In this document: one piece after another, positions 2,760-50,754 of the stretch
Position numbering within the stretch: the stretch's first letter is position 1
Layout of the letters: every line of letters starts with the position of its first letter
Origin: an uncultured Bacteroidales bacterium
GTDB lineage: Bacteria > Bacteroidota > Bacteroidia > Bacteroidales > CAIXZF01
Assembly: GCA_903923925.1 (NCBI GenBank)
Contig: CAIXZF010000029.1
Coordinates: forward strand, 1-64,000
DNA length: 64,000 nucleotides
Reading direction: 5' to 3'
Position numbers and translations under genes: made by a program
Notes under the pieces: model-generated
Seen by the model: only the letters and a program-made list of their open reading frames with translations
Told to the model about the DNA's origin: nothing
Database searches by the model: none

Positions 2760-3653
2760 TTAAGCTTTTGGGTGAGCTTGTTTGTAAATCTTTTTCAGTT
2801 TTTCAATAGTATTATGGGTATAAACCTGAGTTGCACTCAGGTTAGCGTGCCCCAATATCTCTTTTATAGCATTTAAATCAGCACCGCGGTTTAGCATATG
2901 AGTGGCAAATGTATGTCTTAATACATGTGGACTCTTTTTATTCTGAGTAGTAATTCCTGCTAAATGTTTGTGTACAATGCGATAAACCATCTTAGCATAG
3001 ATTTTACAACCTTTATCTGTTACGAAAAGAAAGTCAGTTGAGTTTTCAACAAGTGAAAACTCTTTTTGTTTTGTTGTTATATAATTCTCAAGTAGATCTT
3101 TTATCCTATTCCCAAACGGGATAAATCTTTCCTTATTCCTTTTTCCGAGGACTTTAATATTCATCCTGCTAAAGTCGACATCAATTATTTTTAGATTAAC
3201 TAATTCAGATAATCGCATTCCAGTGGCATAAAACAACTCAATTATTACAAGGTCTCTGAGATCATAGTAATTTTGGGGAGTCTCAATAGTTTTAAATAGC
3301 AATTCAATTTTAGATTCTTCAACAATAACTGGAAGGCGTTTAGGAATTTTGGGAGAAATGATTTTAATCATTGGACTTTCATCGATTAATCCTTCTTTTT
3401 TTAAATATCTGAAGTAGGATTTAAGGGTCGACAGTTTTCTGTTAATGGAGCGATTTTCTATTTCAGTATCGAACAAAGATACCATCCAGGACCTTATCAT
3501 TTGATAATCAATAGTCTGTGGTTCTGTGATTTCGTATGCCTCGTTTAAAAACTGAAAAAACTGTTCAAGGTCTTTATTATAAGCCTTAACAGTATGCGGA
3601 GAGTATCGTTTCTCAAAACTTAAGTACTGGACAAATTTTTCACAAGTAGTCAT
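2760..3653 (-). CDS. xerC: Tyrosine recombinase XerC/XerD family
   Basis: A 297-residue tyrosine recombinase. An N-terminal SAM-like DNA-binding domain (about 1-90, with YSPHTVKAYNKDLEQFFQF) precedes the catalytic domain. The catalytic residues are visible: Arg in TGMRLSEL (near 147), HVLRHTFATHM (His and Arg) and the GHANLSATQVYTH box with the His and nucleophilic Tyr. Its genomic role is inferred to be chromosome dimer resolution rather than mobile-element integration, because it sits between rpsU and hpf in a housekeeping operon. XerC versus XerD cannot be decided from sequence alone; the xerC label follows the usual name at this locus. Confidence 0.9.
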   Translation of the reverse strand: MTTCEKFVQYLSFEKRYSPHTVKAYNKDLEQFFQFLNEAYEITEPQTIDYQMIRSWMVSLFDTEIENRSINRKLSTLKSYFRYLKKEGLIDESPMIKIISPKIPKRLPVIVEESKIELLFKTIETPQNYYDLRDLVIIELFYATGMRLSELVNLKIIDVDFSRMNIKVLGKRNKERFIPFGNRIKDLLENYITTKQKEFSLVENSTDFLFVTDKGCKIYAKMVYRIVHKHLAGITTQNKKSPHVLRHTFATHMLNRGADLNAIKEILGHANLSATQVYTHNTIEKLKKIYKQAHPKA

Positions 3654-3701
3654 TCAGGCAGTTCTAGTCCATAGCAACGATTTGAGTGTGAAAATAATAA
3701 A

Positions 3702-3734
3702 AAATTGTGAAGAAAGCAAGTTTCTTCACAATTT
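3702..3734 (-). terminator. Intrinsic terminator after rpsU
   Basis: A perfect 14-bp inverted repeat (AAATTGTGAAGAAA on the plus strand, loop GCAAG) lies 27 nt past the rpsU stop codon. On the minus strand the hairpin is followed by a T-rich run. It may separate much of rpsU transcription from xerC, whose ATG is about 50 nt further on. Confidence 0.7.
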
Positions 3735-3760
3735 CATACTAAAAATAAAAGAAAAGATAA

Positions 3761-3958
3761 TTAGCTATTATCGCTGATAGACTGCAATTGCTGAATATAT
3801 ATAGCCTTTTGTATACCTTCTCTGGTTTTTACAGAAGGTTTTGTGAATTTTTGTCTTTCACGAAGTTCTTTAACAACTCCGGTTTTTTCAAATTTTCTTT
3901 TCAGCCGCTTGAGGGCCCTGTCAATGTTCTCTCCTTCTTTAACAGGAATAATAATCAT
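3761..3958 (-). CDS. rpsU: 30S ribosomal protein S21
   Basis: A 65-residue basic protein with the S21 signature: EGENIDRALKRLKRKFEKTG followed by a basic helix (KELRERQKF). S21 joins the small subunit platform near the anti-Shine-Dalgarno end of 16S rRNA. Length is typical for Bacteroidota S21. It has its own consensus promoter (4009-4040) and a strong hairpin after it, so it is transcribed at least partly on its own. Confidence 0.95.
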   Translation of the reverse strand: MIIIPVKEGENIDRALKRLKRKFEKTGVVKELRERQKFTKPSVKTREGIQKAIYIQQLQSISDNS

Positions 3959-4008
3959 ACTAAAACGCTCTCTTTCTTTTAATTAATGAATGCTTTTCAA
4001 ATTGGCCG

Positions 4009-4040
4009 CAAAGATAGTGACTTTGAATGATAAAACCAAA
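4009..4040 (-). promoter_or_regulatory. Consensus Bacteroidota promoter for rpsU
   Basis: On the minus strand a -33 TTTG (4040-4037) is followed after exactly 20 nt by the -7 element TATCTTTG (4016-4009). This matches the Bacteroidota sigma factor consensus (TTTG, about 20 nt, TAnnTTTG). The rpsU ATG is about 50 nt downstream. Confidence 0.78.
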
Positions 4041-4050
4041 TTATTAATTT

Positions 4051-4090
4051 AAAAAAGAATGAGCCCTCCAATAAAGACTCATTCTTTTTT
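4051..4090. terminator. Bidirectional hairpin terminator
   Basis: A symmetrical hairpin with arms AAAAAAGAATGAG and CTCATTCTTTTTT and a 14-nt loop has A/T tracts on both sides, so it can end transcription in either direction. It lies 5 nt past the stop of the giant SprB-repeat gene and just upstream of the rpsU promoter, insulating one from the other. Confidence 0.8.
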
Positions 4091-4095
4091 AATTA

Positions 4096-7000
4096 TCATC
4101 TTGCTATAATAAACTTTGTTGAAATTGATTGTGGTTTTGGTCCTGAAAGATTACCAATAATACAATTATATACTCCAGGACGTAAGTTTGAAGTATTATA
4201 TGTAATGGTATGATTACCTGAGGTATATTGAGTTTCTTTTAAAACTGTAATCTGTTCTCCTAATGTATTTGAAATTTGGACAGAAATTTTAGAATCTTCC
4301 GGTAAGTTCAAATAAACAGATAGTTGATCTCTTACAGGATTTGGGTAAATTGTACCGGAGAAGACCAGATTCTCCATGGTTTGAAGTTTTGGATAAATTA
4401 GATTGGTGTTAAACAATGGGTTTGCTAGTTTATCAGCAAATTCACTAGGTCCTGAAATTGTGAAATCATCGGATCCAGAGTTAGCATTTAATATGCGAAC
4501 ATGCAGGAGCAAAACTGGGGCTTCCGGCGCAAGGGTTGCAGTTACTAAACTATACCATGAAATATGTATTGTGCCTTCTTCGATAGCGTAGGACGCATCC
4601 TTAAGACCAGGTGTTTCAATACCGGTTATTTTATACTTGTCAGTAGGATAGTTTAAAATAAGTGATAATGAATTAGCTTCAATTAGTCTGTTTATTTTAA
4701 AAGGTATGACAACATCATCACCATTTTTTGTTTGAATAACATCTTGATTTTCAATTGAAATTGCAGGGTCATATTTAGCAGCTGGAACATATGATCCATT
4801 TGCGTCCCCACTGCATATTGCAAGAACATTATACTCAGGATTAATTGCAGGTATAGTAAATTCAGTGTTTTGAAAAACCCAATCACCTATTGTAAAGGCT
4901 CCGATTTGACCGGTAAAACGCTTAGAAACGAAAAGTGCATCAGATGAATTGACATATTGACTACCATCAACATCAGCACATAATTTTCTGATTCCTGAAA
5001 GTTGAGTCAATTGAACAAAATGTCTAAGAATGATCAAAGCATCAGTTGCATTTACACCACCAAAAGGTTTTGTACACAGAAATTTCAGGTGATAATTTCC
5101 ATCAGGCAGATCAGTAAGCTGATAGAAACCTGATGGATTTGTAATGGTAGTAGCAGCAGTATCGTTTCCATTAATTGCAAACACAGTAACGTTATTAAGT
5201 AGAGTTGAATTTGTATTGTCATATTTAATGGTTCCGAAAACAGTTCTTGTAACATTAACATCAACCAGTACCTGATCTGAATTACTACAACCATTATTAT
5301 CTATTACAGATAGAGTATAAGTTGTTCCAGCCATTGGTGAACTTATCGGATTTAGTATTGTAGGATCATTTAGATAAGTTGCAGGAGACCATTGTATTGC
5401 AAAGGGTTGTGAATTTCCAGAAATCGTAGGAAGAAGAGCAACACTCTGACCATAGGAGATAAGTGTATCGCTACCTGCGTTTACATAAGGCAGAGGAAGT
5501 ACAGTAATACTAAAAGGAGTGTTGTAATTGTGGGTACAACCGTTTTCATCTGAAACATAAAGGAAAGTATAGTTATAGGTTCCTTCATTTAAAGGAGGTA
5601 TTATTGTTAATGTAGTGTCTTGTGTAATTCCAGATATTACATGTTCATTGTTTGCATAATCAAAATATGAAATTATAAATGGGGGTAAAGCGCTTGAGAA
5701 TGTAAGATTAATTGAAACGGACCCACCAGCGCAAAGTTGATTAACAGTACTTATACCGGATATCTCAACATCAGCAGTAGGGGCGACGGAAACAACTAAA
5801 GGAAAACCTATACTATTCCCATTGCAAAAAGCGTCAGAAACCTGAGTAACCCAATAATTAGTAACAGATGAAGGATCAATGTGGAATGTGTAAGGCGTAG
5901 TTAAAATACCAGTTACAATATGAGTGGTTGTATCGTTCCAGGCGATTGTCCATGGGGGAGTTCCAGTGAGGTTCACGAAAACATCGGTACCAATTCCAAA
6001 ACATGAAGTTGATGGACCAACAATCTGAGCAGTAGGTGGATCTGCAATGTTTAAAGCGAATGTATCACTAGGTAATATTGCATTACAATGATAATCAAGT
6101 AATTGAGTTAGAAAATAATTTGTTGAAGAATCTGGACCTACAGAGATCATAACAGGAGTTGCAAGAACATTAGAAAGAGAATGTGTCGTTTGACCATCAG
6201 TCCAAATCAACTGCCAAGGAGGTGTGCCACTCAGATTAATAAAGAGATTTGATGCTTGTCCTTGGCATGTATGAGATGGCCCGGAAATATGAGCAAAAGG
6301 TCTTTCATATAAAGTTACTGTTGCACTACCAGTTCCTACAGAAGAACAATTATTATCTGTGACAGAAACAACAGTATAAATTGCAGAATACTGAGGAATT
6401 ACAGAAAGTGTATATAGATTAGTTAAAATATTGGAAATAGTTGTATCACCAGATTCGTTATTAACAACAATTGTCCAGGGTGGTGTGCCAGTTAACTCAA
6501 CATGTAGGTTTGCAGTTTGTCCTCCACATAAGAACGTAGTCCCTGATATTGTGGCAGTAGGTTTATTATTAACACTTAAAACTACAGGTTGCCCCAGATT
6601 CGTTGCATTGCAATAAGAATCGCTTACTGCATTTAAAGAATAGGTATGTGTAGTGTTAATAGCCACATTAATAAAGTAGGGTGATTGGAAAATATTATTA
6701 ACCTGATGGTTTGTTCCATCAAACCAGGTAATATTCCATGGTGCATGTCCTGTTAGATTTACTTGCAATTGAGTGGATTCACCCGGGCAAACAGCAGAAT
6801 GAGGCAATATTGCAGCTGTAGGCAATGGTTCCGATTGAATAAAATATGTACCTCCATAAACATTTCCCGCACACATTACGTCGGTAACAGAAATGAGTTT
6901 GTATTGTGAGTTTTGTAATACATTAACATAAAAATCATACTCGTAAGTATTGATGTTTAGTACAGTAACAGTATCTGTAAAATTAGTATACCGAAGAGTA

Positions 7001-40781: not shown

Positions 40782-41222
40782 TCAAAATATTGAATGGGTA
40801 ATACTCTTTTCTTCTCCGTCTCTTCCATAGGAGTGTCCATCAAAGGCTACCGGGAAACCTTTGGGTGCAGCCGGAATTTCAAACATGACGACTCGTCCTT
40901 CAGGTTGATATAATTCATGAATCTCAACAAATGTTATTCTGTTGGTGGTTTTACTTCCAATTTCTCCTTTCAGGCTGTCCAAATCTTTACGGTTTGGCCG
41001 GAGTTGGCTGTTAACAACTTTGTGGTGCTTATTCTCAATGCCAAATACTAACCAGGCACGAGTTTTTCCCTTCAAATTTGCTTCATTGCTCAATGCAGAA
41101 AAGTATTTACCCAATTTGTTAAAGTCGTAATTGTTTTTTGCCTCTTTAAATTCCACTACTTCTGTTTCTGCTGCCATGTTTCGCCGTAGCCGAAGTGTGC
41201 TTTCCAATTCTGTTGCGGTCAT
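40782..41222 (-). pseudogene. AlbA_2 (Schlafen-like) domain protein, C-terminally truncated
   Basis: About 146 residues with the AlbA_2/Schlafen-type ATP-binding domain: VEFKEAKNNYDFNKLGKYFSA, then KTRAWLVFGIENK, the strand VVMFEIPAAPKGFPVAFDG and YGRDGEE. Full-length members go on for several hundred residues with a winged-helix part; here the frame ends soon after GRDGEE, at the border with the primase-helicase gene. I read it as a remnant cut off by a rearrangement. A start 27 nt upstream (41249) is possible. Small stand-alone AlbA_2 proteins exist, so activity is not excluded. Confidence 0.6.
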
Positions 41223-41265
41223 ATCCTGATTATTTAAATGCCAAGTCATTTATTAGTGCCACGTT

Positions 41266-42368
41266 TTACATATGCTGCCTCATGCAACACTTTTTGTATT
41301 TCTTGCCGCTACCATAAGGACAAGGATCATCCCTTCCAGGTTCTTTCGCTTCTTTTTGATAAGGTTTAAATGGTTCATCGTCCAGGTAATGAGGTGCTTG
41401 TGAAGAAATACCTTCATCCCTCTGTTCGGGTGCCCTATCGAAATAACTTCCATTTTGATTATTTCTTTGTTAACAAGTAATGTGTCTAATCTACCAGTAA
41501 TGTACTTATCCAGAACTTTATACGGGATAAAAAATTCTGCACCAGGTTCTTTTCTTTTGTTAAAAAGGCCTTTCCCATGCAACAGGTTAAACCACCATTC
41601 CGAAAGTATAAACGGAACGTTGTAGGTTTTCTTCATGTAAATCAGAAAGTGAATATTGAGGATCAACAGTCTTTCTTCTTTTACAACTGGTAAATTATCA
41701 ATCACAAGGTTATCAGTATCATGCATCGATAAAATGGAAAATACCGGATCCATTCTTTCTTCAGAATTATCGAATCCAAGTTCTTTAATGATCTCCAGAA
41801 AACTATTCCATTCTGAGACATTACCAGACTGAAGCAGTTCATATTGTTTCTCCAGTTTACAGAGATAAATCGTGTAGGCAAAGTCATATTCCGGATAACC
41901 CCACAATTTGTCACTTTCAGATAGTGGTCTCCAGACGGCCTCAGAAAAGTCGACGGCCTCTGCAAAATAGCCATTGAATGATAGTTGGAACAGTACTTTT
42001 TTTACTACGGTATCGATACCTGCAACCGGATTGCGCTTTAACACGGCCAAACTTCTGTTTATCTGCTCTTTGTCTTTAAGATAGAAAGCTGTTGTAGTTA
42101 GCGCTAATTCAATGAATTCATAAGTCCTGGCGTATTCCTCAGGCAGGAGTTCGTTATATTTGGTTGCAAAAGCAGCAATCGCTAAATAATTGCTTTCATT
42201 GTACTCCAGACTATCCAAAAACATTTCATGGATTTCAAGTTCGAACACTGGCGGGTAATCAAGTAACTGCATCAGAAATGAATAACGTTCTGATTCGGGT
42301 AGTTCGTCGTAATAATAATCAAGGAGTGCTTCCTGATCTTTAAATCTTTCTGGTTTTATCGGGAGCAT
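41266..42368 (-). pseudogene. SEC-C motif protein, frameshifted before its zinc motif
   Basis: The main frame (41280-42368, 362 residues) is a helical repeat protein (about 1-330) of unknown function, opening RFKDQEALLDYYYDELPESERYS. Near 41455-41475 the frame slips: from there the other frame reads YFDRAPEQRDEG and ends in a perfect SEC-C zinc motif (DDPCPYGSGKKYKKCC, stop at 41266). SEC-C motifs bind zinc and occur in SecA and many nucleic-acid-linked proteins. A single-base error or a true frameshift separates body and motif. It sits 33 nt downstream of the ATPase gene, so the two may be partners. Confidence 0.65.
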
Positions 42369-42401
42369 AAATTATCTTTGTTAATCAGTCATTATCAATC
42401 T

Positions 42402-43694
42402 TTACTTTCCTTGCCATTTGCTTGTAAAATTATGGAGATTTCCGACAAAAGGAATGGCACCGTAACGTCCCTGGATATAGTCCTTTTCAAAAGACCGATC
42501 ATTCCTGATTGATTTATCCCCCTCTTTATACTCGACAAGGGAGTAAAGGTCGGAAGCCCCATATTTATCTTTCTCGACAAAGTAAATCTGATCCCTCCTG
42601 TATTTCCCCATCCTGAGCAGATTAGTGTCATGCGTGGCAAAGATCAGCTGAGCGTTTTTTGGATTAGATTCACTGGAGTTGAAAAACTTGGTGATTGCCA
42701 GGATAAGCAAAGGATGAAGACTAGAATCCAATTCATCAATCATGAGTACACCCCCCTTATACAGGGTATTAAAAATAGGTCCAGATAAATTAAAGACTTT
42801 ATTGGATCCGGCTGATTCCTGCGACCGTAAATCAAAAGTCACAGTTCCGAAAGGTTCATTCTTCTCATTGAATTTTCGGTGTGAGGTTCTGAAATTCAGC
42901 ATGGTTTTACCTACATGATCTGACCCGAGCTGTCTGACCAGATCTTCCGGCATCTCTTTCGGCAAAAGTTCAGGGTTAAAGAGTTCCTTGGTTACCTCAA
43001 TGTCATCGAATCCAAGGTCCAGGTTGTTGAAGAAATCCTGAAGCAATGGTTTGATTTCAGGCTCTTCCAACATTTTAAAGGTCACCATTTTATATTGTTC
43101 ATGACTCAAACCGGAAATAGCCAGGAAATTATTAAACCACTGCATGATCCTTCGAGCCAGGGCACCGTTAAACTGGTCAACAACGGAAAGGAAGAGTGCA
43201 TTATCTCTGGTCTTCTCTTCTAAACCCTGACCTTCAGGGAATCCTGGCCAGATTTCAATACCATCCTTGTCACGAACAAATAGAGGTTTCTCTGTATTCT
43301 TCTTTTGTTCAAATAACCATTCAGCGATAATTGCCGTATTGGTTGCTTCAAAACCATAACGATACCGGATTTCTCCGATCAAGAATACGACTTCAAAGGA
43401 AGATGGAGCTGCCTCAGTATCTGCATTTAGCAGGAAAGGTGTGATTTTAAGTTCTGACGCTGATGAAAGCTCAACTGACTTCAGGATCAGTCGTCTCATA
43501 TTCGACATCGCTTTGATCAGGTTAGATTTGCCACTGGCATTAGCTCCATAAACAACTGCACCCTTGAGGATATCCTGCCTTTCTGAAGGGATAACATTCG
43601 TATCCTTATGTTCTTTGATGCTTGTAGCAATTAGGCTAAGGGTTTTCCTTTCCTTGAAGGACAAGAAGTTACCCACTGTGAACTCTAATAACAT
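42402..43694 (-). CDS. AAA15/21-type ATP-binding protein, OLD/RloC-like defence ATPase
   Basis: A 430-residue ABC-type ATPase: GNFLSFKERKTLSL (typical start of AAA_15/21 proteins), Walker A VVYGANASGKSNLIKAM, a long insertion, then the signature-like MLNFRTS region and GGVLMIDELDSSLHP (Walker B), AQLIFATHD (switch His). Such proteins act in phage defence with a nuclease or other partner; the downstream SEC-C protein may be that partner, but this is only inferred from position. A TATATTTG element and two inverted repeats lie upstream. Appears intact. Confidence 0.82.
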   Translation of the reverse strand: MLLEFTVGNFLSFKERKTLSLIATSIKEHKDTNVIPSERQDILKGAVVYGANASGKSNLIKAMSNMRRLILKSVELSSASELKITPFLLNADTEAAPSSFEVVFLIGEIRYRYGFEATNTAIIAEWLFEQKKNTEKPLFVRDKDGIEIWPGFPEGQGLEEKTRDNALFLSVVDQFNGALARRIMQWFNNFLAISGLSHEQYKMVTFKMLEEPEIKPLLQDFFNNLDLGFDDIEVTKELFNPELLPKEMPEDLVRQLGSDHVGKTMLNFRTSHRKFNEKNEPFGTVTFDLRSQESAGSNKVFNLSGPIFNTLYKGGVLMIDELDSSLHPLLILAITKFFNSSESNPKNAQLIFATHDTNLLRMGKYRRDQIYFVEKDKYGASDLYSLVEYKEGDKSIRNDRSFEKDYIQGRYGAIPFVGNLHNFTSKWQGK

Positions 43695-43789: not shown

Positions 43790-43878
43790 TGTTTTTGTTC
43801 ATTCTTTTCTTCTGTTCATTGACAATGAACAAGCCTTTTGGCTGAACGAGTTATTACTAAATGCCTTGGCTTAGTGAC
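43790..43878. repeat. Long direct repeat R1 with TGTTCATTGACAATGAACA palindrome
   Basis: About 90 bp similar to R2 at 48401-48490. The shared core is the 19-bp palindrome (43813-43831), a further TGTTCATT half-site upstream, CTGAAC downstream, and the block ATTACTAAATGCCTTGGCT. Its right end supplies the last codons and stop of the truncated hsdR, so it lies exactly at the break. Confidence 0.7.
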
Positions 43879-45587
43879 ACCTCCCAGGTCAGGGGATCCC
43901 GGAATTCTTCTTCATATTTCAGCTTTTCTTCGTCACTTAACTCAGCATATTTTATTCCCTGTCGCTGAAATTTCGTTGGGACTTCAATGGCTTTTGGGGG
44001 AACCAGAAAACCATCATTAACGGCTTGTTCCAGCTCATAGGCATAGGTGGGATTATTGGGTTCTAAACTGAAGAGAGCGTAGGTATCCCGGTCTCCTTCG
44101 GATTTCGGAGTGGCTGTTAATCCTAAGCGAAGACCATCAAAATACTCGAAAATGTGTTTGTAACGGTTATATACTGAACGATGAATTTCGTCAAAAACAA
44201 TCAGGTCGAAATGTCCGACTCCATAAAAACGGTTGTCTCCATCTGCCTCTCCATCTATCACGTTAATCATGGTTTGATAGGTTGAGAAAACGATGCGGCT
44301 GCTTTCATCTTCCTTTTCCTTGGTCAGATCTACAGCCGGCAGGTTCGGCAGGTAATCGTTGAGATTTGTTTTAGCCTGGTGGATCAGGGCATTTCTGTCG
44401 GCCAGGAACAAAACCCGTTTTACCCAATTGGCTTTGCTCAGGAAATCAATGATGGATGCTGCCACCCTGGTTTTACCTGTACCGGTGGCCATCACCAACA
44501 AGGCTTCCCTGTTGTTGCTTTCGAGGGCTTCCGCTACTTTGCGGATGGCTTCATGCTGGTAGTAACGATCGGTGATATCGTTGTTGATGGTTCTATCCGC
44601 CAGTGGTTTCCGTGATGTTCTTCTTTGGATCAGCAGTTGAAGCTCGTCTTTGGTATAGAAACCCCAGACAGGCCTGGGAGCATAATTTTTATCATCCCAG
44701 ATCCAGCTTTTGTACCCATTGGTATAAAAAATAACAGGGCGCTGGCCGCATTCAATCTCCAATGAATCGGCATAGCATTTGGCCTGGTGCTGTCCAACCC
44801 GGGGATCCCGGCTGGTTCTTTTGGCTTCCACAACTGCCAGAGGTTTTCCATTGTCGCCCCAAAGTACATAATCCACCCAGCCTTCCCCATTGTAGCCCAA
44901 AGCCTGGGGCATATGATGCACCGGATATTCAGCTACATTCAAGCCGTAAGGATCCCAGCCTGATTCACGAAGGAGTGTGTCTATGTAAATTTTGCGGGTG
45001 AGGTCTTCATTATGATCTACAGCCGGTGGAATAAATCCGATGTTATGGTCTTTGATTGCCTTTACACCGGCAAGTTCGGCCTCTAACTTCTCCAGCTTAT
45101 CCTGTTGTTCATGGAAGGCTTTTTCCAGTCGGATGAGTTCTTCCTTACTCTTGTCTTTCCCGTATTCCTTTGGAACAAGACGCTCATCAAAAGTATGAAT
45201 ATCAGGTTTGTCCGGACTGTATAACAGGGTCACATAGGAAATAAACCCATGAAGCAATTGCAGGATGTATAAAGATTCCTGGTGTTTAACTTTAGCATTG
45301 GTATGGATGGCAGTATTCCCCAGCTTGCGGATCAGGTTAATGTGGTTGAACTGAACTGCCAGAACCAGGTCCTTAAATCCCTGGTCGTGTATTAGCGAGC
45401 TGAGTGAGGTATCATAGGGAAGTTTCAGGTCTTCGTCGTGTTCATACATCCAGCGCACCCATTCCTCCAGGCTCTTACGGCAGAGCATGGCAGAGTACAA
45501 AGGAGCTGTAAATGCGTGTAGCTCAGCTTCTCGCGGAGTATCAGCAATTGCTGACCATTGGGGCGGTATGAAGCTGAAGCTACTCAT
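43857..45587 (-). pseudogene. hsdR: Type I restriction subunit R, C-terminally truncated
   Basis: A 576-residue remnant of HsdR (usually 900-1,100 residues). Order: an N-terminal DUF4145-like helical domain (about 1-110), a nuclease domain with the D...EAK site (GWVDYVLWGDNGKPLAVVEAK), then a superfamily II translocase with MATGTGKTRVA (Walker A), VFDEIHRS (DEAD-like) and LTATP. The second RecA domain and C-terminal helices are gone: after EEFRDPLTWE the frame runs into repeat R1 and stops. DNA translocation and cleavage should be lost. Begins 1 nt after the DUF3307 pseudogene stop. Confidence 0.85.
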
Positions 45588-45588
45588 T

Positions 45589-46302
45589 TTAAGATGTTAA
45601 GGATTTTACCAGTATTCCAATTAGGATAGCTGTTCCGATACTAATAAGCGTTCCGATTAGTACATATTCTGATCTCTTTTGCACACCATTAACGTCATTG
45701 AATCGCAATATAGATTTGGCAGCGGTCAGAAGTCCAATAGCTTCATACTGACCATAAATGACAAGGGTGAAAATGATTACTCTTTCGAGTATTCCTATCC
45801 ACTTTCCGGCATTATCAAGACTTTCTGTATGATCTCCTAATTCATTACGCCATTTTTGTGTTAACAATCCTATCAGGATGCCTGAAGGTTGAGTAAGGAA
45901 TACAATAGCCAGCGAATAAATCCAGAATGAACTTGTATTTATCTGTTGCAGAAGGATGAGTTGATGATCAACCAATCCGGGAACAAGTAAAATCCACAAG
46001 CCTAAAATGATCAGAATGTGAAATAATTGATCCAAAAGAAAATAAAAGGTATTCTTCCTCTGGTATGATTTCCACAGATCGATTGAATAATGCGTGATGA
46101 AAATAATGATGGGAACGAACCAACTGGAAAAGCCTGTAAATAAAGCGGCAAAGAAACTTGTCAGAAAAGCATGGATTTAGAGTTTGTCCGATTTCCAGTG
46201 TCTTTTATACCTGTCGTCTATCCATGAAGTGGGTTGAAAAACAAAATCAGTCAGAAAATGTGCCGTTAGCATTTTTATAAGCCATATAAGCTGCATGTCC
46301 AT
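45589..46302 (-). pseudogene. DUF3307 membrane protein, broken by an in-frame stop
   Basis: From ATG 46296 (or 46302) the frame opens with a membrane helix and AHFLTDFVFQPTSWIDDRYK, the DUF3307 signature. An in-frame TAA at 46177-46179 interrupts KSDKL*IHAFLTSFF; family members have a residue here, so it looks like a single nonsense change. The frame then continues for about 195 residues with several membrane helices (AIVFLTQPSGILIGLLTQKW) to the stop at 45589. The gene follows the SatD-like gene by a few nucleotides and leads directly into hsdR. DUF3307 proteins are often found next to SatD-like genes; their role is unknown. Confidence 0.75.
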
Positions 46303-46303
46303 A

Positions 46304-46948
46304 TTAATCAACAGGTTTTAAGTCATTTACGATATCTTTATATAGGTTCAGAATTTGCTCGAAATCATCCCAGAGCGCTGCCTTTTTCAACTTGTGTATG
46401 GTTGGTTGGCTTTTTTTCAGGGACCAGGCTGCTTCTTTTTCACTTACCCCCTGAAGCATTTCCAGAAATACCTGTGCTTGTTGAACAGAGAGCCTGGACA
46501 AAATATAATCAGCATAGATTGCGATGGCCTTTAATCCTGATTCTGCCTTCTGATCGTAGCACCGAATGATCAGCCGCTTGTTGCTTTTTGATAAAATATC
46601 CAATTCTCTGCCCGACAAGGTAAAAGCCTCGCCCTGGCCATTGGCCATGGTTAAAACCGGTTCATCAATCTGTCCGATACCAATCGCTATCCGGATATCA
46701 ACGTTTTCTTTTGTCTTATGTGGCTGCTTTAACCGTGCAAATGCCCGCAATTTTGCAACTTCAAACATTGCCTTTTCAGTTGAAACCAGAACATTAAAAC
46801 TATCACCACGGTAAAATTGAACAGCTGGTTGGCTGAAAACGAATTCCTGCTCAATATCTGCTTTTAAGCTGTCCAAATCTTTGGGTGACAACAAGGAGGA
46901 GTTAACTATATCAGCTGTTAATACTGCGCCTGTTTTCATTGAATCCAT
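46304..46948 (-). CDS. SatD-like protein (cyclase-like fold with C-terminal HTH)
   Basis: A 214-residue protein. It opens GAVLTADIVNSS, has FYRGDSFNVLV and IAIGIGQID strands like a nucleotide-cyclase fold but without a clear metal pair, and ends with a helix-turn-helix-like part (about 155-210; VSEKEAAWSLKKSQPTIHKLKKA). This fits the SatD family as annotated in bacteria, often paired with DUF3307. DNA binding and autoregulation are inferred from the C-terminal part and from the three dyads over its promoter. Start could also be the internal ATG at 46939. Appears intact, unlike its neighbours. Confidence 0.65.
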   Translation of the reverse strand: MDSMKTGAVLTADIVNSSLLSPKDLDSLKADIEQEFVFSQPAVQFYRGDSFNVLVSTEKAMFEVAKLRAFARLKQPHKTKENVDIRIAIGIGQIDEPVLTMANGQGEAFTLSGRELDILSKSNKRLIIRCYDQKAESGLKAIAIYADYILSRLSVQQAQVFLEMLQGVSEKEAAWSLKKSQPTIHKLKKAALWDDFEQILNLYKDIVNDLKPVD

Positions 46949-46959
46949 ATTTTAGACTT

Positions 46960-47040
46960 CAAATATAGCCATTTTTGTCTATTATTTCAAAATATAGCTT
47001 AATTAGGCTATAAATTAACAAAATAGCCATTATAGGCTAT
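46960..47040 (-). promoter_or_regulatory. SatD-like gene promoter with three regularly spaced operators
   Basis: On the minus strand: -33 TTTG (46991-46988), 20 nt, -7 TATATTTG (46967-46960), an exact consensus promoter 12 nt before the ATG. Three dyads of the form ATAGCY-N6-GKCTAT lie at 46965-46982, 46994-47011 and 47023-47040 (plus-strand numbering); the last is perfect (ATAGCC-ATTATA-GGCTAT). Starts are 29 bp apart each time. The first overlaps the -7 element and the second lies against the -33 element. Confidence 0.75.
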
Positions 47041-47048
47041 AATTAATA

Positions 47049-47133
47049 TATTCGTGGAAATAAGGGTAATTCGTGGATGGGCCATTGTGTAAGCGATTTT
47101 AGACCACCGATTTCACGGATTAACACGGATTTC
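47049..47133. repeat. Interspersed inverted repeat (ATTCGTGG / CCGATTTCACGGATTAACACGGAT type)
   Basis: TATTCGTGGAAATAAGGG...ATTCGTGGATG (47049-47079) and, 23 nt on, ACCGATTTCACGGATTAACA (from 47106) form an imperfect inverted repeat between hsdS and the SatD promoter. It is a different sequence from the one at 24463-24535 but of the same style. Confidence 0.55.
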
Positions 47134-47160
47134 TTCATAGTATTACAGTTATTTGTGTTT

Positions 47161-48253
47161 TCAGGCTACCAGTTCGCCGGTAAAGGCTTTTTGGATGAGG
47201 GTTTGGAAAAGTAAATCAGAATTGATATAAAGCATTTCTTTGCTTTCTGCAAGTTTAATGGTTGCATTAATAAATCTTGATTGATCCTTTAATGGAGGTA
47301 GTTGTATACTAAGGTTTTTCAATACACCTGTATTCATGTGTGTAAAAGCGCCATCTCCCCCTGTTTTTAACCGACCTATTTTTTTGAAAAATATTTCATT
47401 AAAAACACAAAGTACTCTGGTATGATGTATTTCTTAGTCAATGAGAGTTTTATGAGATTTGTACTAATTATTGATTCGTTGTGTTTTGTGTTTACGACAC
47501 ACATCTTCCCAACAGTTCCTGCTCTTGATATTATAATATCACCAGATTTAACCGCGTAAGCGTTTAATTCTGAGTATTTATCATTCGAAATGTATAAGCA
47601 GCCATTTTCAACAAAACGGTAATCAATATTTTTGTCCATGGTCCAAACAGGAATTCCATTTTTTTTATACTCATCCCTTTTTAAAGCACTGCCAAAGGGA
47701 CCGCATTTGACACCCTCATCAAAAAGTTCACCTAGCATTATGGTTTTCCACCCCTTCTCATTCCTCACCGGATCACCGAACATATCAATAAAAATGGCCA
47801 GGGCCAGGGTAGCTTTGGCGGTAAAATTGGTATTGGCTTCGCTCAGGGCAATATTCGAGAGCATTTCCACCACCTGGGCCAGAAGTCGGGGAGTAGGATC
47901 ATAAAGGTGGCTCCCTTCATGAACTTACTTAAGGCGGCACTCCTATTTCCAATATTTCTCAGGAAGTCAAAAATGCCAGCCTCTTTGGTAAAGAGGCGGT
48001 GCATCACTTCCGGGTCCATATTTTTGAAATGGCTCCAACAGAGCTCATTTTCAGACTCTTTGTAGAATGCATCCTCGATAGGCCTTTTCAGCATATTCGC
48101 CTTCTGTTCTTTTTGCGTTTGCAGTTCATCCAGTCGGCGGATAAACAGCAGGTAGGTCATCTGTTCAATAACCGTCAGTGGGTTGGATAATCCACCCGTC
48201 CAGAATGCCTCCCAGACTTTATCTATTTGTGATTTGATGGCGCCGGTGATCAT
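47161..48253 (-). pseudogene. Fused remnant of type I methylase (hsdM) and specificity subunit (hsdS)
   Basis: The start (ATG 48253) reads the HsdM N-terminal domain (IKSQIDKVWEAFWTGGLSNP, FIRRLDELQT, SKFMKGATFMI). One base is lost near 47898, after which the frame resumes as TPRLLAQVVEMLSNIALSEAN. Near 47820 HsdM ends abruptly and continues as the HsdS central linker (IFIDMFGDPVRNEKGW) and second target-recognition domain (GPFGSAL, GDIIISRAGTVGK). A further frameshift near 47388 is followed by the HsdS C-terminal end (HMNTGVLKNLSIQLPP to ELVA). Thus the methylase core and the first recognition domain were deleted. The R-M system cannot work from this copy. Confidence 0.8.
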
Positions 48254-49108: not shown

Positions 49109-49459
49109 ATGACTGAAAAAAACAACATAAATTGGCAGTCAATGAGTGATAGAGCGATAATAGAAAGCCTTGGATTGTATATTAAACATCATCGGTTGGA
49201 GCAAAACAGGACACAGCAGGAACTGGCTGTGGCATCTGGTATTAATCGCTCAACATTAAATCAGGTGGAGTCGGGCAAAGCGGGCAGCTTACTCACCCTT
49301 ATCCAACTATTACGGGCTTTAAATCAATTGGCTATTTTGGATGCATTTGAAATTGTAACACCAATCAGCCCGTTAAAACTGGCCAAATTGGAACAGAAAA
49401 AACGTAAAAGAGCCAGTGGGAATAAGCAAAGTAATAACACACCAAAATCAAGTTGGTAA
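49109..49459 (+). CDS. hipB: HipB-type XRE antitoxin/repressor
   Basis: A 116-residue protein with one XRE helix-turn-helix (about 25-85; YIKHHRLEQNRTQQELAVASGINRSTLNQVESGKAGSLLTLIQLLRAL). It binds HipA and represses the operon. Its N-terminal MSDRAIIESL segment is the part duplicated in the ghost copy at 51.5 kb. The TAA overlaps the hipA ATG (TAATG), so the two are translationally coupled. Basic C-terminal tail. Confidence 0.85.
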   Translation: MTEKNNINWQSMSDRAIIESLGLYIKHHRLEQNRTQQELAVASGINRSTLNQVESGKAGSLLTLIQLLRALNQLAILDAFEIVTPISPLKLAKLEQKKRKRASGNKQSNNTPKSSW

Positions 49460-50754
49460 TGGCAAATAGTACTGCATTAATTAGGCTTTGGGATAAATTG
49501 GTTGGTGCTGTAGCCTGGTCAGAAAATAGCCAGTTAGGAAATTTTGAGTTTGATCCGGGATTTTTAGATTTGGAATGGGATATTTCACCTATCATGATGC
49601 CAATTGCCAAATCGAAGGGAAGAATTTATTCTTTTAATGAAAACAAAGGATCTGCGTCATCTTTCAAAGGCCTGCCAGGTTTACTGGCTGACATGCTGCC
49701 TGATAAATATGGAAATGCATTAATTAACTTATGGCTTGCAACACAGGGCAGGGCAACCGGAAGCCTTACTCCAATTGAAACCCTGTGTTTTATCGGGAAG
49801 CGGGGTATGGGTGCATTAGAAATTGAACCATCTTTAAAAAAAGAAGAGAGCAGATCAGCAAAAATAGAGATTGATACAATGGTTTCTGTCGCAAACAGGA
49901 TTTTAAACAAGCGGGAGCAATTTCATGCAGATTTATCCAAAGATGAAGAAGATGGATTAACTGATATTCTTAGAATTGGAACATCTGCCGGAGGTGCACG
50001 AGCAAAGGCTATTATTGCATTTAATGATAAAACCAGGGAGGTTAGGAGTGGGCAGGTCAAAGCGCCTAAAGGGTTCTCATATTGGATTTTGAAATTTGAT
50101 GGTGTGGCTGATAACCAGATTGGGGAATCAAAAGGTTATGGGAAAGCTGAGATGGCATACCATCTGATGGCAAGAGATGCCGGAATTGAAATGTCGGAAT
50201 GTCAACTACTTGAAGAAAATGGAAGAGCACATTTCATGACCAAGAGATTTGACCGGGATGATGAAGGAAACAAGATTCACATGCAAAGTTTTTGTGCCAT
50301 GAGGCATTTTGATTTCAATATGGTTGGTTATTACGCTTATGAGCAACTATTTGAAACAATGAGGATGCTTGGATTACCCTATCCGGAGGCTGAGCAATTA
50401 TTCACTCGGATGGTCTTTAACGTGCTGGCTCGTAATTGTGATGACCATACTAAAAACTTCGCTTTTCTATTAGACCAAACAGGGAATTGGAGGCAATCAC
50501 CCGCTTTTGATGTTTGCCATGCCTATAGACCCGGAAGTGATTGGGTTAATAGCCAATCACTTACTGTAAATGGTAAAAGAGAAGGTATTACGGAAAACGA
50601 TTTTTTAGCTGTTGGTAGACAAATGAACATCAAAAAAGCAAAGCAAATTATTTTCAGGGTCTCGGAGGTTATTAAAAACTGGAATCACTATGCTGAAGAG
50701 GTGAAAGTTGATGCCAAAATGCGGGATGCCATAAAGCAAACATTATTGGTGTAA
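49459..50754 (+). CDS. hipA: HipA-family kinase toxin, single-chain form
   Basis: A 431-residue HipA-like Ser/Thr kinase, with the N-terminal subdomain (about 1-115) fused to the kinase. Seen: the SAGGARAKA glycine/serine loop near 175, KFDG core lysine region, NVLARNCDDHTKNFAFL (catalytic Asp and Asn) and AFDVCHAY (metal Asp). HipA phosphorylates glutamyl-tRNA synthetase or other targets and causes dormancy. Start at ATG 49459 follows the hipB stop by overlap; an upstream TTG is less likely. Reading frame intact, unlike most neighbouring defence genes. Confidence 0.88.
   Translation: MANSTALIRLWDKLVGAVAWSENSQLGNFEFDPGFLDLEWDISPIMMPIAKSKGRIYSFNENKGSASSFKGLPGLLADMLPDKYGNALINLWLATQGRATGSLTPIETLCFIGKRGMGALEIEPSLKKEESRSAKIEIDTMVSVANRILNKREQFHADLSKDEEDGLTDILRIGTSAGGARAKAIIAFNDKTREVRSGQVKAPKGFSYWILKFDGVADNQIGESKGYGKAEMAYHLMARDAGIEMSECQLLEENGRAHFMTKRFDRDDEGNKIHMQSFCAMRHFDFNMVGYYAYEQLFETMRMLGLPYPEAEQLFTRMVFNVLARNCDDHTKNFAFLLDQTGNWRQSPAFDVCHAYRPGSDWVNSQSLTVNGKREGITENDFLAVGRQMNIKKAKQIIFRVSEVIKNWNHYAEEVKVDAKMRDAIKQTLLV

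Follow-up and report, generated by a model that had tools for sequence, protein, structure and literature searches.

A putative three-dyad operator of SatD-like proteins and the candidate residues that select its half-sites

Introduction

Lambda CI and the C proteins of restriction systems are autoregulators, each acting on a short tandem array of dyads placed over its own promoter, and tandem operators of autoregulators are already a known kind of control element. Among signalling systems built on cyclases, Pycsar combines the cyclase PycC with a membrane effector, either PycTM or PycTIR.

In Streptococcus mutans, SatD has been connected with acid tolerance, and its gene was reported in 178 of 249 Streptococcus pyogenes genomes, being accessory yet essential in transposon studies; the part of that report available to us describes no operator for SatD (PMC11323703). 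In Bacteroides, the −7/−33 promoter motif is given as TAnnTTTG/TTTG in the available part of another report (PMC2483708).

Here we describe a locus of an uncultured Bacteroidales bacterium, contained in a stretch of 64,000 nucleotides (referred to as the window), in which three dyads precede a gene for a SatD-like protein. By computation, we establish the array and its conservation, relate the half-site to the recognition helix, identify DUF3307 as the usual target, and assign the protein fold. The SatD-like protein encoded directly behind the three dyads very likely has its operator in them; it would bind them as dimers, choose its half-sites by a three-residue code, and in all likelihood repress a satD-DUF3307 unit.

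Results

The features of the locus are collected in Table 1. The pattern ATAGCYNNNNNNGKCTAT was matched exactly at the three dyads and nowhere else in the window, both intervals between dyad starts being 29 bp, and the satD-like gene lies directly downstream. In the whole genome, the pattern had four forward matches, three of which form the window array, and this array was the sole occurrence of an ATAG-N10-CTAT dyad pair at 29 bp in 4,615,474 bases. Single loose dyads are ordinary, since 13 with up to two mismatches were found in the window against 12.2 expected; what is unusual is the exact, regularly spaced triple. Indeed, the 210-nt upstream region reached a three-copy dyad score of 32.0, and none of 3,000 dinucleotide shuffles attained it (maximum, 28.5). 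An earlier note on this DNA had reported ATAGCY-N6-GKCTAT three times exactly 29 bp apart, and the exact matches, the shuffles, and the uniqueness of the pair confirm it.

Table 1. Positions of the features of the satD locus in the window
Feature	Position	Strand	Basis and remarks
DUF3307-type membrane-protein frame	45589–46302	−	Usual satD partner; in-frame stop at 46177–46179
SatD-like regulator, 214 aa	46304–46948	−	Homology, profile, AlphaFold2 model
Putative −7 element TATATTTG of the satD promoter	46960–46967	−	Fit to consensus TAnnTTTG (available part of PMC2483708)
Gene-proximal operator dyad (putative), ATAGCC-N6-GTCTAT	46965–46982	.	Pattern match and shuffle test; overlaps −7 element
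Putative −33 element TTTG	46988–46991	−	20 nt from −7 element; consensus from available part of PMC2483708
Middle operator dyad (putative), ATAGCT-N6-GGCTAT	46994–47011	.	Pattern match and shuffle test; 2 nt from −33 element
Distal operator dyad (putative), ATAGCC-N6-GGCTAT	47023–47040	.	Pattern match and shuffle test

Inverted repeats could fold as RNA, and the dyads might accordingly be a structural or RNA element, such as attenuator hairpins or iterons, or else a chance repeat. We regard the probability of this as close to negligible: the shuffled sequences never reached the observed score, an Rfam scan of positions 46200 to 47400 gave no match, the dyad letters follow the recognition helix as described below, and transcripts from the putative promoter would not include the middle and distal dyads, both of which lie upstream of its putative −33 element.

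The encoded protein comprises a palm (nucleotide-cyclase-like) domain at about residues 1 to 150 and a helix-turn-helix at about residues 155 to 208, with the recognition helix at 181 to 190. By itself it had no Pfam match, whereas SatD (PF16264) matched 18 of 29 homologues in the same alignment (E ≤ 0.01; best E, 4.4e-14), and a PF16264 search of its own genome and 14 control genomes found nothing. A whole-genome homology search with the window protein gave a best E of 4.7e-22 over residues 7 to 208 (locus L006), and such near-full-length homology would place it in the SatD family, even though it lacks a PF16264 match of its own.

Searched against the PDB, the family profile matched the class III cyclase-like 3mr7 (E 7.5e-6) and Ma1120 (E 8.8e-4) with its N-terminal half and the helix-turn-helix 7bhy (E 0.0016) with its C-terminal part. 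Within the 29-row alignment, the helix-turn-helix matched sigma region 4 in 11 members and the LuxR type in 6. The AlphaFold2 model (pLDDT 93.8) has two domains, alpha/beta at the N terminus and helical at the C terminus, so that profiles and model together support the helix-turn-helix that the earlier note had seen at the C terminus. VIA-align matched the model to GTP cyclohydrolase III (Z 12.2) and Rv1625c (Z 11.8), among others, and the 50 matches listed (Z 10.5 to 12.2) were every one a palm-type nucleotide enzyme or a CRISPR palm subunit. Besides, D13 and D49 were invariant in the 29-row and in a 56-row alignment, and they stand at what we take to be the positions of the metal-binding aspartates of cyclases. 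Judged by profile and model, SatD is a cyclase-fold (palm) protein with a helix-turn-helix, and its palm domain is probably nucleotide-binding because the cyclase fold and both of these aspartates are kept. In Methanofollis (L171, positions 470 to 2062), the satD frame extends to more than 500 codons and is possibly fused with the downstream gene.

We also considered SatD as a defence family and rejected this, the PADLOC matches being weak throughout. Among 29 SatD members scanned, PycC matched one weakly (E 0.0041) and the window protein not at all; the other matches, likewise all weak, were to CARF3 models (best: two members, E 1.1e-5) and to candidate systems.

At E ≤ 0.001, a satD-like gene was found in 44 of the 295 genomes of the order by a single-protein search, and a profile search of 395 genomes of the phylum gave hits in 132, some of them weak and partial; the genome of the window has a single SatD locus. 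Each upstream region was scored for three equally built dyads with spacings of 24 to 35 bp and steps differing by at most 2, and the score was compared with those of 40 shuffles of the same region. All 40 shuffles were beaten by 160 of 217 SatD-like upstream regions, and 140 of these 160 were spaced 28,28 or 29,29. The training set (147 loci reduced to 119 distinct genes) contributed 85 such regions, with 40 at 29,29 and 35 at 28,28, and the held-out set contributed 75, with 34 at 29,29 and 31 at 28,28; the latter set came from 136 new loci, which gave 99 genes at ≤85% identity to the training genes, 98 of them scored. Some of the 57 regions that failed to beat the shuffles belong to loci with arrays after satD or with two-dyad arrays, and in the rest nothing was found by these tests. 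The shuffles were also beaten in 20 of 240 upstream regions taken as controls, where about 6 would be expected, and 9 of these were spaced 29,29. Eight control regions scored at least 28, namely, seven DUF3307-like starts, recognized by reading their sequence, and one at L172, which implies that the control set itself contains genuine arrays.

Thus, the dyads that the earlier note proposed to look for upstream of orthologues are present, yet their letters vary from gene to gene. The AGC triplet of the window occurred in just 4 of the 141 arrays having a clear triplet, and a search for ATAGCC-N6-GGCTAT would miss most arrays because the letters differ between genes. The window's own letters, tried as a family signature, were accordingly set aside: they had one further exact genome match, and the trait became visible once each gene was given its own half-site.

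Four of eight archaeal loci scored also beat all shuffles; L171, L205, and L228 had a spacing of 29,29, and L189 had 31,29, two of its dyads being clear and separated by 29. The other four (L164, L174, L183, and L230) failed to do so. Two dyads 29 apart were seen on a Natronosalvus plasmid, two dyads in Candidatus Brocadia, and three TTAGCC..GGCTAA dyads with a 28-bp step on a Vibrio plasmid, where an annotated DUF3307 gene is next. A Segatella plasmid copy adjoining DUF3307 (L291) had no such array within the 200 nt scanned. We rejected the idea that the Bacteroidota −33/−7 spacing sets the 28- to 29-bp step; in-register promoters exist, but the step recurs in archaea and Vibrio, and this recurrence, on the Natronosalvus plasmid as well, makes the protein a likelier cause of the spacing than the promoter. 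A spacing of 28 was counted in 69 arrays and of 29 in 77, with just 15 changes on the protein tree, a pattern resembling a trait of individual clades of the protein. Dyads numbered more than three at several loci: 13 at 29 bp in L047, five in L101, and four each in L052, L053, L095, and L143. A phage origin was considered and rejected, there being no match in annotated phages; one IMG/VR contig (L290) matched.

When pooled, the half-sites read wTAT-NNN, where NNN differs among genes, and 26 different triplets occurred in the 141 arrays. We compared NNN with the 196 columns of the protein alignment in 75 training arrays; 6 of the 85 arrays had been left out for irregular spacing, and 75 of the remaining 79 had a clear triplet and were used, 4 being left out. 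The top three columns by z-score were 192, 189, and 188, which correspond to K186, T183, and P182 of the window protein and fall within its recognition helix. For the held-out set, 8 of 75 arrays with irregular spacing and 1 of the other 67 without a clear triplet were left out. In the 66 arrays used, the three residues predicted 78.6% of the bases correctly, compared with 58.1% for N-domain similarity, 57.6% for the C-domain minus the three residues, and 62.6% for the whole protein, and with a baseline of 27, 27, and 58% for the commonest letter at each position. For the 12 most remote of these 66 genes, the three residues predicted 80.0%, as against 41.7, 51.4, and 52.8% from N-domain, C-domain-minus-three, and whole-protein similarity, respectively. 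The best single columns of 192 in the held-out set were again 192, 189, and 188.

Individual residues behaved in the same manner. In the 59 rows with Ala at column 189, operator position 6 was A in 55, T in 3, C in 1, and G in none, while Ser or Thr at this column went with G in 51 versus A in 8. The classes include QNSVSGR with TATCGT, QSSVSER with TATCGG, QSAVNQH with TATAAG, QPGIHKR with TATAAC, and QPT(I/V)xK with TATAGC. Outside the window, the P-T-K combination was present in a sole other gene (L052), which belongs to a different family and likewise has AGC. The mispredictions include six A-A-R arrays that carry TAC where AAG was predicted. Independent-pairs tests, which remove the effect of shared ancestry, had too few pairs for significance at column 189 (four well-supported pairs, 3.1 the same way and 0 opposite; median p 0.25) and for K at column 192 (four pairs, 2.5 the same way; median p 0.5), and they were uninformative for Q versus E/G at column 192 (two pairs; p 1). 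Parsimony on a quick protein tree gave 58 triplet changes, a figure that tree errors would inflate. A rule that paralogues avoid each other's operator was tried and dropped, as the two SatD genes of one genome (G165; L007 and L092) have like half-sites.

Residues 182, 183, and 186 thus covary with the half-site, and recognition of the dyads by SatD is strongly indicated, at the level of sequence comparison, in two gene sets. Another DNA-binding protein might instead read the dyads, satD being a mere target; this is extremely unlikely, given that in held-out genes the three SatD residues predict the half-site far better than overall similarity does, and that arrays located after satD obey the same code, with 27 of 32 bases fitting in 11 of 14 such arrays (observed letters read by eye; L115, L129, and L041 left out). 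Covariation and held-out prediction both point to the recognition helix, and we therefore take SatD itself as the reader of the dyads. An autoregulatory helix-turn-helix repressor would have dyads at its own promoter and a layout common to its homologues, and both were found here. The earlier note had called autoregulation likely; this is strengthened as to the reader, while the sign of control, repression or activation, is one that we infer from the promoter.

As the earlier note had it, the first dyad overlaps the −7 element, TATATTTG sharing 3 nt with it. The second had been said to touch the −33 TTTG; a gap of 2 nt places it beside this element, without contact. A third TTTG (47022–47019) abuts the distal dyad. 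Of 99 TAnnTTTG sites, 42 were located 8 to 13 nt past a dyad centre, against about 9 expected, and the proximal dyad was the commonest position of such in-register −7 elements (25 of 42); strict in-register TAnnTTTG occurred in just 32 of 128 bacterial arrays, a count that the AT-rich arms inflate. Overlap with the −7 element and nearness to the −33 element suggest that the array represses. SatD could also be an activator, or an activator/repressor switch at the same operator, with distal dyads recruiting polymerase and the proximal one repressing, a reading that differs from ours only in sign. The middle and distal dyads are both upstream of the −33 element, and the sigma region 4 and LuxR types that the helix-turn-helix resembles include activators, but here the proximal dyad runs into the −7 element, and it is also the one where −7 sites most often stand in register. 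On balance, activation seems rather unlikely, and repression is the reading we prefer.

Single-linkage clustering placed a DUF3307-type gene behind satD in 193 of 218 loci, and Pfam DUF3307 matched all four full-length cluster members scanned. The C-terminal part of the window DUF3307 frame had no Pfam DUF3307 match, but it matched the C-terminal part of the DUF3307 genes of homologues. Intact homologues are common; the window frame has one in-frame stop, an interruption that may have cost this copy its product. A model of DUF3307 (L154, positions 3312 to 4046, and related proteins) is all-helical with pLDDT 92.4, and its conserved residues include His, Asp, Lys, Glu, and Arg; against the PDB it had no match better than E 2.2, an absence that is no proof of a new fold.

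DUF3307-like genes with an array directly before them were seen among the control genes. In loci without an array before satD, 14 of 70 had one right after satD (70 of the 71 regions without a strict array being long enough), versus 0 of 70 sampled loci with an array before satD. The DUF3307 cluster includes 11 of these 14 loci; L220 has a DUF3307-like gene further down, while the next gene in L022 and L129 was not assigned to DUF3307; the array of L041 (27,27, low score, in the DUF3307 cluster) is probably a chance match. In several of these loci, the sequence preceding satD reads like the tail of a different gene, as though satD transcription originated there. In L172, at about 4074 to 4284, three near-identical 19-nt dyads with a 29-bp step precede an oxidoreductase-like gene downstream of satD-DUF3307, and their half-site has no obvious fit to the code. 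The likely target of the array in most loci is DUF3307, satD being included when the promoter is shared.

The earlier note had further suggested that the array governed restriction enzyme synthesis. A truncated hsdR frame, in the orientation of the DUF3307 frame, does begin immediately behind it, and an hsdM-like match was found near two other loci, on the satD strand in L095 and on the opposite strand in L126. This suggestion did not hold up: in flanks of about 0.6 to 2.5 kb, hsdR or hsdS matched in none of the other loci, where the DUF3307-type gene is the usual partner, and the window frames are short (hsdR, 576 aa; hsdS, 165 aa; hsdM, 136 aa). Control of restriction enzymes by the array is thus very unlikely, and the steady target is most likely the satD-DUF3307 pair rather than hsdR, because arrays located after satD instead of before it stand mostly before DUF3307. 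The short type I restriction frames flank the pair (43857 to 45587 and 47376 to 48253), and it looks as if the pair lay inside a decayed hsd operon. The neighbourhood is defence-island-like, with an AlbA_2/Schlafen protein, an AAA_21 ATPase, and a HipB-like/HipA pair at 40782 to 43694 and 49109 to 50754.

Discussion

In the mechanism that we propose, a SatD dimer would sit on each dyad, contacting a pair of wTAT-NNN half-sites, with 11 bp, or about one helical turn, between the centres of their variable triplets. The letters of NNN would be chosen by residues 182, 183, and 186 of the recognition helix, P-T-K pairing with AGC. With three dimers spaced 28 or 29 bp apart, both promoter elements (−33 and −7) would be occupied, and the satD-DUF3307 unit would most likely be repressed. 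A signal, probably a nucleotide, would be sensed by the cyclase-fold domain and would release or tighten DNA binding.

More tentatively, SatD-DUF3307 might be a portable signalling cassette, made of two genes and shared by bacteria and archaea. A nucleotide-sensing palm joined to a DNA-binding domain would use a three-dyad operator of its own to restrain a membrane protein that is possibly harmful, and loss of SatD would then be lethal; we hold this reading to be possible, though less probable than not. Since each cassette would regulate itself alone, operator and recognition helix could drift together, giving many largely insulated specificities under one three-residue code. Such lethality would account for a satD that in Streptococcus pyogenes is essential although accessory, and the essentiality, as far as the available part of that report goes, fits a partner that is possibly harmful and held in check (PMC11323703).

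For two almost unstudied families, SatD and DUF3307, sequence allows prediction of the binding site, of the residues that select it, and of the gene under control. The natural protein-DNA recognition pairs collected here may be useful for building insulated regulators, and the fold points to a possible nucleotide-like signal for the DUF3307 membrane protein.

In the literature searched, which takes in few subscription papers, DUF3307 was named in one paper and the term "SatD family" was used in one; we found neither SatD with a helix-turn-helix in connection with Bacteroidetes nor a SatD-like operator. As far as that search reaches, the SatD-like operator, its 28- to 29-bp three-dyad form across phyla, the three-residue code, and the DUF3307 target are new. 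Compared with SatD of PF16264, the window protein is the same two-part protein and differs in having no Pfam match. With the class III cyclases and other palm enzymes (3mr7, Ma1120, Rv1625c, and GTP cyclohydrolase III), SatD shares the profile match, the fold, and the two aspartates; unlike them, it appears from sequence and model to be fused to a DNA-binding domain, and cyclase activity is not implied. Pycsar is similar in that a cyclase-fold protein adjoins a membrane protein, but SatD carries a helix-turn-helix. In layout, the array resembles those of Lambda CI and the C proteins, autoregulators with tandem dyads over their own promoter, whereas SatD has another protein fold, usually three dyads at a fixed step of 28 to 29 bp, and a half-site that varies along a three-residue code.
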